This document shows positions 11,343 to 51,350 of a stretch of DNA of 64,000 nucleotides, in pieces. This DNA comes from an uncultured Microbulbifer sp. (GTDB lineage: Bacteria; Pseudomonadota; Gammaproteobacteria; Pseudomonadales; Cellvibrionaceae), in the NCBI RefSeq assembly GCF_947498635.1, contig NZ_CANMKV010000001.1:186001-250000 (forward strand). The letters are read 5' to 3'. Each line of letters starts with the position of its first letter. Position 1 is the first letter of the stretch. Below the pieces are notes generated by a model that saw nothing but the letters and a program-made list of their open reading frames with translations, did not search any database and had not been told where the DNA came from. The position numbers were made by a program, and so were the translations under genes.

Positions 11343-11495
11343 ATACTTGATGTATTTTTAATCTTACAAGGCCTTCTAACCCGCCAGCCTATTTCTTTGG
11401 CATTCAATAAGTTCCAGCCACTTCTCATCGACATAAATACTTCTCTAAACTGTCATTTCTTCCCGCTAGCCTGAGCGCTTTTTTGGGGCCGAACC

Positions 11496-48456: not shown

Positions 48457-49026
48457 TTAATGTAATAACCAATCTTGTTGGCGCCTACGCGAGAATTGAC
48501 TGCGCAGAAATTCCATCTGGTCCCCGCGAATCCGCTCACTATTGATCAAAGCCAGATACTCCGCCGCATTGGGACAGAAGGGCAGTGCCAATAATTCCAT
48601 GTCGATCTCCTCAAGGAGATGGTTCCCCTTATGCTGATTGCAGCGCCGACAAGCGGTCACCACATTTTCCCAAGAGTCCATCCCTCCTTTGGATACAGGG
48701 ATAACATGATCTCGTGTCAGCTCGATCGACTTAAAAATATTGCCGCAATACAGACAGCTATGTATATCCCGAAAAAAAAGCGCCCGGTTTGTCAGCGGAG
48801 GCCGGCGACGCGGGCGAGCCATTCGCGAACCACCACAGGCAATGATCGACGCCAGATCCAGGGTGGAGCGCTCACCATATCGGTTAAATCCACCTCGTAC
48901 CCGCTGTACTATACCGCCCAGAGACCATGTAACCAGATCCCGAACATATAAACAGGAAGCCTCTTGCCAAGTAAGCCAATCTAATGGCTGCCCTGCCAAA
49001 TTCAGACGTAAGATTCGCGCTTGCAT
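48457..49026 (-). CDS. HNH endonuclease family protein
   Basis: 189 residues from ATG 49026 with GGGGAGGTAAGG upstream; the frame opens at 49044. The C-terminal half holds an HNH domain: CLYCGNIFKS (Cys pair), TRDHVIPVSKGGMDSWENVV (His and Asn) and ACRRCNQHKGN (second Cys pair for the structural zinc). The N-terminal half (LRLNLAGQPLDWLTWQEA) is typical of the conserved proteobacterial stand-alone HNH proteins. It is not linked to restriction or phage genes, and its substrate is unknown. Confidence 0.9.
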   Translation of the reverse strand: MQARILRLNLAGQPLDWLTWQEASCLYVRDLVTWSLGGIVQRVRGGFNRYGERSTLDLASIIACGGSRMARPRRRPPLTNRALFFRDIHSCLYCGNIFKSIELTRDHVIPVSKGGMDSWENVVTACRRCNQHKGNHLLEEIDMELLALPFCPNAAEYLALINSERIRGDQMEFLRSQFSRRRQQDWLLH

Positions 49027-49505
49027 GACCTTACCTCCCCGCAATCAAACAGAAAACCCGGCCCGATGCCATCAAAATTAGAAAAGTGAATGAGAGTAGC
49101 GATCGATCAGTGATAATCAGCCCGCCAGGAAAAAGCGAATAGGAAAAAGGGAAATAAAATTGTGTTTGAACCAGAGGATTTGGTGTCAATAAGCCATTAG
49201 CGGGAGAAGTGTGGCAACCCGTAAATGATTTGACTAATGAGGAAACAGCAGCGCAGCGACAAGATATTGCCAGGGAATAAACAGGTACTGCTGATGATAG
49301 ATTGCTGAATGCATCACCCTCCACCGGCCCGAGCAATAGTGGCCGACCTCTTATTATTAAAGCGGATAAATATTACAAATTCCAGATTGTGACACTCTGG
49401 CAGCAAGCTTACCGCCAAAAGATAACAGGAATTTCAAAAGGTTAACGGCACACCCTGCGATCACAGCAATGGAAACAGGTGGTAGGAGTATGAGTGGCGG
49501 GATTA
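49027..49505. other. 479-bp intergenic stretch upstream of the HNH gene
   Basis: No ORF or repeat stands out. It lies downstream of the minus-strand RNA terminator and contains the HNH promoter. AT-rich around 49360-49460. Confidence 0.4.
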
Positions 49506-49541
49506 TTAAAACACCGCCCGGGCAATCCGGCCCGGGCGGTG
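49506..49541 (-). terminator. Rho-independent terminator of the small RNA
   Basis: Minus strand: CACCGCCCGGG - 8 nt (with a GGA) - CCCGGGCGGTG then TTTTAATAA. Eleven perfect GC-rich pairs. No minus-strand protein gene precedes it, which first pointed to an RNA gene. Confidence 0.88.
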
Positions 49542-49632
49542 CGTCTCACAGGATGGTGCCCATATCCTTAGGGCGAGCGGCGCAATCCATTTATCCTTTG
49601 CCGCAGAGTTGCAGTCCCTTGTGCGTCCCTGC
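49506..49632 (-). ncRNA. candidate RsmY/RsmZ-type CsrA-sequestering small RNA
   Basis: About 127 nt from a predicted start near 49632 (-10 CATAAT at 49644-49639, weak -35) to the T-run after a strong hairpin. Six GGA triplets occur (plus-strand positions 49626, 49615, 49594, 49586, 49565, 49526); five fit the CsrA-preferred A-N-GGA form. Several lie in predicted loops: GCAG...CTGC enclosing two, GCGGC...GCCGC enclosing two, and CCC-TAAGGATAT-GGG. A GacA-type site lies about 65 bp upstream. Size, motif count and promoter layout match RsmY/RsmZ of pseudomonads. No ORF fits. Identification is by architecture, not by sequence match. Confidence 0.72.
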
Positions 49633-49687
49633 CAGTTAATTATGGACATCAGGCGAGAAAAAAGTAGGGGCAATCTGCTGAATTTTA

Positions 49688-49705
49688 TGTAGGACATATC
49701 TCACA
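49688..49705 (-). promoter_or_regulatory. GacA/UvrY-type upstream activating sequence
   Basis: Minus strand TGTGAG-ATATGT-CCTACA against the consensus TGTAAG-N6-CTTACA: 10 of 12 defined positions match. Centred about 65 bp before the predicted RNA start, the distance seen at RsmY/RsmZ promoters. Confidence 0.65.
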
Positions 49706-49835
49706 AAGTGAAATATTTCTTTAACAATTGAGGGGGAGACCCAATAGGTAGCCTGTGGTACAACAAGGCTCAGTGCAGTGCGCGGCCACTATAAACACCT
49801 CTATTTCAAGTTCAATCCAAACAGGGAAAAAGACG

Positions 49836-51350
49836 TTGAAATATACGCTAATATTTTTGCTTATCTTCAGCGCCGTGGTTTCAGGCGCTTTCGCTGCCGT
49901 CGCATCGGGTATCAGCGTACCCTGGCGCCAAATTGTTGGCGGAGCGAAAACCGACGAACAGAAAGTAACCCAGGGCCTAACACCGGCCTCTGGCTACCAG
50001 CTGCAACTGTTTGCCGACAACGTGCCCAATGCTCGCTGGCTCGCAATAACCCGCAAGGGGGATCTCCTGGTTTCCCAGCCCAAAGAGGGCCGTATATCCC
50101 TGCTGTCCCCCGACCTTAACGGCGATGGGCGCGCCGACAGCCAACGCATGCTCATTGATGATCTGAACCGCCCTCACGGGCTTGCTTTCCACGAGAACTG
50201 GCTATATATAGCGGAAAGCGACGCCATTGGAAGGGTGCCCTTCGATCACTCCGATGGCCGTTTGGCTGGGCGTTACGAGCGAATTCTGGAAGACTTGGAG
50301 GATAGCGGACACTGGACCAAGACCATCGAAATGGGCCCCGATGGTTGGCTGTACCTAAGTAGTGGCTCCAGTTGTAACGTCTGCATTGAAAAGGATCGCC
50401 GCCGCGCCACCATTATGCGCCTGCGCCCCGATGGTAGTGATCTAGAAATACTCGCCACCGGCTTGCGCAACAGCGTCGGGTTTGACTGGTCGCCAAAAGA
50501 CGGCGGTCTCTACGCCACTGACAATGGTCGCGACTGGTTGGGTGATAACTTGCCACCCGATGAACTCAATTTAATTCAGCCCGAGAAATTCTACGGTTGG
50601 CCTTACGCTTATGGCGACCGAATTCCAGATCCGGACTTCATCAATGACGAGAGTCCGACCATCAAAGAGATGATCGCCTCCTCCCTGCCCCCGGTGCATG
50701 AGTTCGCCGCCCACAATGCCCCGCTCGGTATCCGCTTTTTGCGCAGCCCGGAGCAGCAAACAGACTATCGCGGCGCCGCTCTGGTAGCGCTGCACGGCTC
50801 ATGGAACCGAAGCGTCAAGGATGGCTATAAGGTGGTTTCCCTACACTGGGATGAAGGCGGAAATATTACCCAGAGGGATTTCCTATGGGGCTTTCTCAGC
50901 CAAGACCGCAAGGAGGTTTCCGGCAGGCCCGTGGCCATTGCCGAGGACGGCCAAGGCATCATTTATATTTCTGATGATTACGCAGGCGCAATCTACCGCT
51001 TATCCCCCAGTGATCCACAAAAAACGGTAGCCCCCCGCAAAACCAAGGCCCCGGCCCCGGCCCCGGCCCCGGCCCCGGCCCCGGCCCCGGCCCCAGGCAG
51101 GGTACCGAAAAAACCTCCACCTGCGAACGCCGCTGCAGCACAGGAGGGCAGAGCCCTTTACCTAAGCCACAATTGCGCTCAATGTCACCAACAACAAGTA
51201 CCCTTAAAAGAACTCAATAAGAAATACACACTGCAGACCCTCTCAGACTTTTTTGACACTCCAACACCACCCATGCCCAGGTACGACTTTACTGACGAGC
51301 AAAAAAAGGCCCTGGCTCATTACCTACTCGCGCGCGAAGCCTTGCAATAG
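49836..51350 (+). CDS. PQQ-type soluble sugar/aldose dehydrogenase fused to cytochrome c
   Basis: About 504 residues from TTG 49836 (CAGGG upstream), giving the export signal MKYTLIFLLIFSAVVSGAFA; the frame opens at GTG 49755. Residues about 40-400 form a sorbosone/glucose dehydrogenase-type six-blade propeller: VPNARWLAITRKGDLLVSQ, DDLNRPHGLAFHENWLYIA, LRNSVGFDW, NGRDWLGDNLPPDELN and APLGIRFL. A (Ala-Pro)8 linker encoded by eight GGCCCC repeats follows. The C-terminus is a cytochrome c domain (HNCAQCHQQ heme site). It probably oxidises a sugar in the periplasm and passes electrons to the bound heme. The cofactor is inferred. Confidence 0.88.
   Translation: MKYTLIFLLIFSAVVSGAFAAVASGISVPWRQIVGGAKTDEQKVTQGLTPASGYQLQLFADNVPNARWLAITRKGDLLVSQPKEGRISLLSPDLNGDGRADSQRMLIDDLNRPHGLAFHENWLYIAESDAIGRVPFDHSDGRLAGRYERILEDLEDSGHWTKTIEMGPDGWLYLSSGSSCNVCIEKDRRRATIMRLRPDGSDLEILATGLRNSVGFDWSPKDGGLYATDNGRDWLGDNLPPDELNLIQPEKFYGWPYAYGDRIPDPDFINDESPTIKEMIASSLPPVHEFAAHNAPLGIRFLRSPEQQTDYRGAALVALHGSWNRSVKDGYKVVSLHWDEGGNITQRDFLWGFLSQDRKEVSGRPVAIAEDGQGIIYISDDYAGAIYRLSPSDPQKTVAPRKTKAPAPAPAPAPAPAPAPGRVPKKPPPANAAAAQEGRALYLSHNCAQCHQQQVPLKELNKKYTLQTLSDFFDTPTPPMPRYDFTDEQKKALAHYLLAREALQ
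51047..51094 (+). repeat. hexanucleotide tandem repeat (GGCCCC)8
   Basis: Eight perfect copies of GGCCCC inside the dehydrogenase-cytochrome gene, encoding an Ala-Pro linker between the propeller and the heme domain. Copy-number change would alter linker length but keep the frame. Confidence 0.9.

Follow-up and report, generated by a model that had tools for sequence, protein, structure and literature searches.

The closest described relatives of the locus considered here are the CsrA-sequestering RNAs of the Gac/Rsm (Csr) pathway. In Pseudomonas, the gene of one of these, rsmZ, adjoins rpoS and fdxA. According to part of a report on P. brassicacearum (PMC7911923), RsmX, RsmY, and RsmZ of this bacterium carry 6, 7, and 10 GGA motifs, respectively, and rsmX-1 and rsmX-2 form a tandem duplication (copies of 111 and 110 nt, both with 6 GGA). 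For E. coli, the UvrY site at csrB is given as TGTGAGAGATCTCTTACA in a portion of PMC4682653, whose authors used TGTAAGNNNNNNCTTACA in their scan for UvrY sites. The consensus applied below, TGTAAG-N6-CTTACA, is found in the same portion of PMC4682653.

Within the window, the 64,000-nt stretch of Microbulbifer DNA that was analyzed, one locus is very probably the gene of a GacA-activated Gac/Rsm small RNA that titrates CsrA. The putative sponge RNA gene occupies 49508-49632 on the minus strand, which bears out the minus-strand unit of about 127 nt proposed in an earlier note. The RNA of ~125 nt is matched by a covariance model (R1, built from 37 RNA rows with the promoter left out), and its 5' end is deduced from the -10 element and the upstream box. 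It is flanked by an HNH endonuclease gene (48457-49044, minus strand) and, on the plus strand, by a gene of sugar-dehydrogenase type (49755-51350) whose product has a cytochrome domain. Counting confirms that the RNA holds six GGA, five of them in ANGGA form, and in the 64 kb, on both strands, no other locus has at least five ANGGA within 91 nt. When the 124-nt RNA is shuffled with its dinucleotides preserved, six GGA alone turn up in 146 of 5000 cases, and five ANGGA in none. Of the 29 named stretches that contain an 18-mer of the RNA, ATCCTGTGAGACGCACCG, Microbulbifer accounts for 26, and the other 3 are scattered and chance-like.

All of the RNA's elements lie on the minus strand. Hairpin H2 (GCGGC...GCCGC, 49577-49604) encloses the third and fourth GGA, and hairpin H3 (GCCC-TAAGGATAT-GGGC, 49558-49574) presents the fifth in its loop. 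There follows a near-invariant 3' block, CCATCCTGTGAGACGCACCG (49537-49556), which contains no GGA and offers a UCC for possible pairing with the GGA nearest the 5' end. The terminator (49508-49542) comprises a 13-pair stem, a CGGATT loop with the sixth GGA, and four U. Its GC-rich stem, GCACCGCCCGGGC-CGGATT-GCCCGGGCGGTGT at 49511-49542, has a G-U as the outermost pair, and the four U at 49508-49511 include the paired one. Thus, the strength that had been ascribed to this terminator holds for the stem, but the U tract is short, and the terminator is absent from the output of the consensus terminator scan.

Upstream of the RNA lies a GacA/UvrY-type box, TGTGAGATATGTCCTACA (TGTGAG-N6-CCTACA; 49688-49705, minus strand), which fits the consensus at 10 of 12 positions, just as had been claimed. 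The -10 element CATAAT (49639-49644, minus strand) precedes the RNA in all 36 extracted primary copies. From the box center to the first base after CATAAT is 59 nt, and the center is therefore ~65 bp before a start lying 6-7 nt further on, again in agreement with the earlier note. Relative to that base, the center is at -59 in 35 of the 36 loci and at -62 in the remaining one. Among these 36 Microbulbifer loci, the fit to TGTAAG-N6-CTTACA is perfect in 11, with one mismatch in 8, two in 2, and three in 15. Just two sites in the window have at most two mismatches, the one at the sponge locus and one at 11351. Between box and -10 element (49645-49687, minus strand), a promoter stretch TTCAGC, and then CC and CTA, is kept in most of the 36 aligned loci. 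In addition, most of the loci L024-L036 have, ~20 bp further upstream than the GacA box, a second palindrome resembling TGTGACG-NN-CGTCAC, which we take to be CRP-like; in several further loci, this place is taken by a second GacA-like box.

A derived box pattern, TGTRVGNNATNTCBYACA, was written after several of these boxes had been seen. It occurs once in the window's own genome, at the sponge locus, and it is found upstream of the RNA in 48 of 48 Microbulbifer genomes; the reversed pattern has 1 forward and 3 reverse matches over the same 48 genomes. The distance from box to RNA is equal in 46 of the 48, being 3 nt longer in G024 and different in G007. Since the box is not part of R1, its presence upstream is independent of the model, and it precedes all 16 R1 matches in other genera (14 with at most two mismatches to the consensus, 2 with three). 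Because the derived pattern was shaped by the observed boxes, the control was scored with TGTAAG-N6-CTTACA instead: among 20,000 box-free segments (those fitting the derived pattern having been excluded), none has two mismatches or fewer, and 3.9% have three or fewer.

The window's own genome contains 113 sites with up to two mismatches to the box, of which 14 besides the sponge locus were examined. A single one of these, L043, is followed by five ANGGA; it has a one-mismatch box and 7 GGA in the next 300 nt, and is likely a chance case. A second Rsm RNA may exist elsewhere in this genome. Elsewhere in Microbulbifer, none of the 12 stretches at other box-pattern sites resembles an Rsm RNA. Ten of them (L175-L184) are one conserved site with 0-3 ANGGA, and the other two (L185 and L186) have 1 and 0. 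At this conserved site, seen in 10 of the 48 genomes, a palindrome like the GacA box lies upstream of a conserved block, approximately TTTAGACACTTTTTCCATAAATG, and of an apparent MKRR start. Given the few ANGGA there, it is perhaps a gene that GacA would target directly.

A DNA search of 58 genomes matched all 36 other Microbulbifer genomes, although G007, a genome that is 80% complete, matched in part only and was excluded from the 36-locus alignment, which includes the window's own locus. Each of the 36 primary Microbulbifer RNAs has 6-8 GGA and 5-7 ANGGA. With R1, the RNA is detected in every one of the 48 Microbulbifer genomes and, among the 96 remaining genomes of the family, in 16 that represent 8 of 31 other genera; under strict filters, with which weak matches are lost, the other 80 of the family's 144 genomes give no match. 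The more general model R2, built from 25 rows and run against 390 genomes of the order, likewise under strict filters, matched 18, of which 15 are in the family and 3 outside. Both new loci in the family (L193 and L194) have the box, with two and three mismatches. The candidate sponge RNA, as judged by these matches, extends over part of the family, and R2 gave no link to Rsm RNAs of other families among the 390 genomes at the strict filters used. The HNH gene adjoins the RNA in all 36 Microbulbifer loci, in L063 and L064, and in 11 of 18 loci of other genera.

Several weak matches deserve separate mention. L068 is an R1 match with an E value of 0.074. Two second R1 matches in Microbulbifer, L144 and L145, are judged false: the first is inside an ORF of 789 codons and the second inside one of 501 codons, and the best site of each departs from the derived box pattern at 5 and 6 positions, respectively. 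The three R2 matches outside the family (L195, L196, and L197) have no box site with fewer than five mismatches. The end of a 398-codon ORF reaches into L195, and L196 looks by eye like the end of a tRNA, yet ARAGORN reports none there.

The predicted structure agrees in part with what had been expected of it. The window's RNA folds with a z score of -2.95, and two of four orthologues reach -3.4 and -4.0, but the other two just -1.4 and -1.5. The claim that GGA motifs sit in hairpin loops holds in the predicted fold for the fifth (H3 loop) and sixth (terminator loop), which are clearly unpaired, but not for the first, which is partly paired in the closing helix, nor fully for the second to fourth, which are intermediate. 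In the alignment A1, 99.2% of cells are paired and double changes occur in 8 of 28 pairs; no measure is matched in any of 500 shuffles. In A3, 97.1% of cells are paired, with double changes in 20 of 26 pairs and again 0 of 500 shuffles, counts that lean towards the structure of the model because A3 was fitted to it. A3 consists of 23 of the 28 match sources plus L019, leaving out L018, L037, L066, L131, and L143; plus-strand matches in L011 and L001, which are read as the antisense of the terminator, were kept out of it by a cut-off of 0.0008.

The individual helices differ in what they contribute. By eye, H3 gives the clearest covariation: its stem is GCCC/GGGC, GCCA/TGGC, or GCTC/GAGC within Microbulbifer and of ACCT/AGGT type in other genera, and 95.7% of its cells are paired, with three rows misaligned there. 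H2 has 99.4% of cells paired and a double change in one of five pairs, and the terminator stem has changes on both sides in five of its 13 pairs. The aligned loci do not share hairpin H1, which encloses the second GGA. In the closing helix, the UCC of the 3' block would be paired with the first GGA, and these three pairs are unchanged in 25 of 25 A3 rows; such constancy fits a closing helix, yet with so little variation covariation does not prove it. Directly before the 3' block, all 36 Microbulbifer loci have an ANGGA. In the other genera, the 30 nt that precede the block contain a GGA in 14 of 18 loci and none in four; in L143, the GGA near the block is outside the loop. Thus, alignment with relatives, which had been put forward as a check, finds the box, the GGA motifs, and the stems to be conserved.

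Three Microbulbifer genomes, G011, G021, and G035, contain, outside the window, a second gene in tandem, whose 3' block lies 436, 449, and 505 bp further on, respectively (loci L020/L041, L018/L039, and L019/L040). The boxes of these second copies, TGCGCGATATTTCGCACA, TGTGTGACATATCGCACA, and TGCGAGATATTTCTCACA, have 5, 4, and 3 mismatches to the consensus and are weaker than the first; the spacing is the same as in the first copy, before GATAAT, and the 5' start and the 3' end are kept. What differs is the interior. The predicted second RNAs, of 295, 311, and 363 nt, exceed twice the length of the first and have 18, 18, and 24 GGA, of which 15, 16, and 20 are ANGGA. With the terminator counted in, they have 6, 10, and 8 simple hairpins whose loop holds a GGA, versus shuffle means of 1.7-2.2, and none of 300 shuffles reaches the observed counts. 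Their overall predicted folding is not exceptional, a 227-nt part of the G011 copy having a z score of -1.96. Tandem Repeats Finder reports arrays inside both long genes that were analyzed, that of G021 not being among them. Two inner units have probably been multiplied: one of ~16 nt, resembling GCARGGAYGC, and the H3 hairpin, which is repeated with a period of ~22 nt and with differing stems while the GGA of the loop is kept. The short form, 131 nt as modeled with 6 GGA, is RsmZ-sized. In G034, the tandem second gene is simply a duplicate: its RNA has 130 nt and 6 GGA, and its box has four mismatches. From these copies, it appears likely that an Rsm-type RNA has become a CsrB-type sponge by growth of internal repeats within one genus.

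Could such an RNA act in another way? It has to be considered that it is a GacA-activated small RNA that works mainly by pairing with mRNAs through the 3' block, with the GGA motifs being secondary. This block is the most conserved part of the RNA, with every base but the first invariant in 37 rows, it holds no GGA, and its ATCCTG is kept in 18 of 18 loci of other genera. However, its conservation is also explained by pairing with the 5'-most GGA together with the terminator stem. Furthermore, the GGA motifs are retained while the surrounding sequence and the length of the RNA change, and it is these motifs that have been multiplied in the long copies. A main role in mRNA pairing is consequently very unlikely. 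A small protein has even less to recommend it. The earlier note had stated that there is no ORF, which is incorrect, as an ATG ORF of 63 codons (49506-49697, minus strand) crosses the RNA gene. Nevertheless, the start and frame are intact in just 5 of 36 orthologues, the ATG sits within the GacA box, and the lengths of orthologous RNAs differ by numbers that are not multiples of three (1, 2, and 11 nt, for example); a coding function is rejected, its probability being minute. Finally, an untranscribed chance cluster of GGA next to a chance palindrome is scarcely credible given that none of 5000 shuffles has five ANGGA, that R1 matches every one of the Microbulbifer genomes, that A1 and A3 show covariation, that the box precedes independent matches, and that L043, the likely chance case, matches 0 of 33 other genomes.

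Taken together, the results favor a sponge RNA controlled by GacA. From features present in the DNA itself (box, promoter spacing, GGA motifs, pairing, conservation, and pathway genes), we infer that the gene is transcribed, that GacA binds upstream of it, and that the RNA binds and titrates CsrA. In this model, GacS/BarA would phosphorylate GacA, and GacA-P would bind the palindrome at 49688-49705 and activate the promoter with CATAAT. An untranslated RNA of ~125 nt would be made, ending at the 49511-49542 stem, and its ANGGA sites would bind CsrA/RsmA dimers, so that CsrA/RsmA would be removed from target mRNAs.

The window's own genome encodes the proteins that this model calls for. A gacA gene lies at L076:789-1442, directly before uvrC and pgsA, and the best NCBIfam model for its product is UvrY/SirA/GacA (276.2 bits versus a cut-off of 280). 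A BarA/GacS homologue aligns with residues 5-894 of the 918 of E. coli BarA (33% identity, E = 4e-122); a search with PF09984, a model of the BarA/GacS sensor domain, found no match. Seven CsrA loci (L069-L075) are present, one of which is downstream of an aspartate kinase gene, a usual position of csrA. Among the 48 Microbulbifer genomes, 11 have 5-27 CsrA matches, of which a few are interrupted by a stop, a single genome has 2, 30 have 1, and in 6 (G262, G026, G388, G017, G027, and G018, all of which carry the RNA) this search found none. The 11 CsrA-rich genomes range up to G389 with 27 and include the window's own as well as those whose RNA is nearest to the window's in the DNA search; in each of them, R1 detects the RNA once. 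G011, G021, and G035, which have the long RNA, have one CsrA match each; thus, sponge size does not track the number of CsrA genes. In G389, a 20-kb region (L188, G389:C1:636500-656400) contains several csrA ORFs among ORFs that look Rhs-type, one of which has a pre-toxin domain match, with RHS repeat below its cut-off; some neighboring ORFs are transposase-like by eye. According to part of a review (PMC7366521), the genera in which CsrA is present in two or more copies are Pseudomonas and Legionella, with Legionella having the highest average.

These findings add a candidate Gac/Rsm output RNA, outside the coverage of Rfam, for Microbulbifer and some related genera. In a literature search on Microbulbifer and Saccharophagus, none of the titles among the best matches concerns such an RNA. 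A candidate sponge-RNA locus is now also proposed for genome G320, presumably that of Teredinibacter turnerae. GacS, GacA, and two CsrA homologues are reported in part of the T. turnerae genome paper (PMC2699552), in which part no RNA gene is located. With the long tandem copies, a route from an RsmZ-type to a CsrB-type sponge becomes testable, and they are an unusually clear case of growth in size among relatives. With up to 27 CsrA matches per genome, it may also be asked how one short RNA could control all of them.

How does the RNA compare with the families already described? Over the whole window, none of the four Rfam models in question matches at gathering scores, nor does any of them in 20 related loci, and the long copies L018, L019, and L020, which are among these loci, are not recognized by Rfam. 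The search for RsmY, RsmZ, CsrB, and CsrC that had been suggested fails even at a permissive threshold, as RsmY, PrrB_RsmZ, CsrB, and CsrC are absent among the 12 Rfam matches up to E = 10 on 49300-49860; the lowest E value there, 0.15, belongs to SorX, far below its gathering score. Because of this lack of an Rfam match, the earlier description of the RNA as RsmY/RsmZ-like is right for its presumed action, as indicated by box, GGA motifs, and pathway genes, but not for its sequence family. The evidence supports a place for it as an uncatalogued member of a known functional class, the CsrA-sequestering RNAs of the Gac/Rsm (Csr) pathway. Like RsmX, RsmY, and RsmZ of Pseudomonas, it would be a GacA-preceded RNA of similar size with several GGA and no protein product. 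Unlike them, it has a near-invariant 3' block able to pair with the 5'-most GGA; we know of no such module in RsmX, RsmY, or RsmZ. Its gene neighbor is the HNH gene, unlike that of rsmZ. The UvrY site of csrB is close in sequence to the Microbulbifer boxes, but its center is at -183/-182 (from the same portion of PMC4682653) rather than at about -65. E. coli CsrB (369 nt, 22 GGA) is three times as large as the RNA of the window itself, whereas the long second copies are comparable to CsrB in both size and number of GGA and have 15-20 ANGGA versus just 7. The arrangement in G034 resembles rsmX-1/rsmX-2, being a tandem, putatively GacA-driven Rsm gene with nearly equal copies; in G011, G021, and G035, unlike in that near-equal pair, it is the second copy that has outgrown the first.
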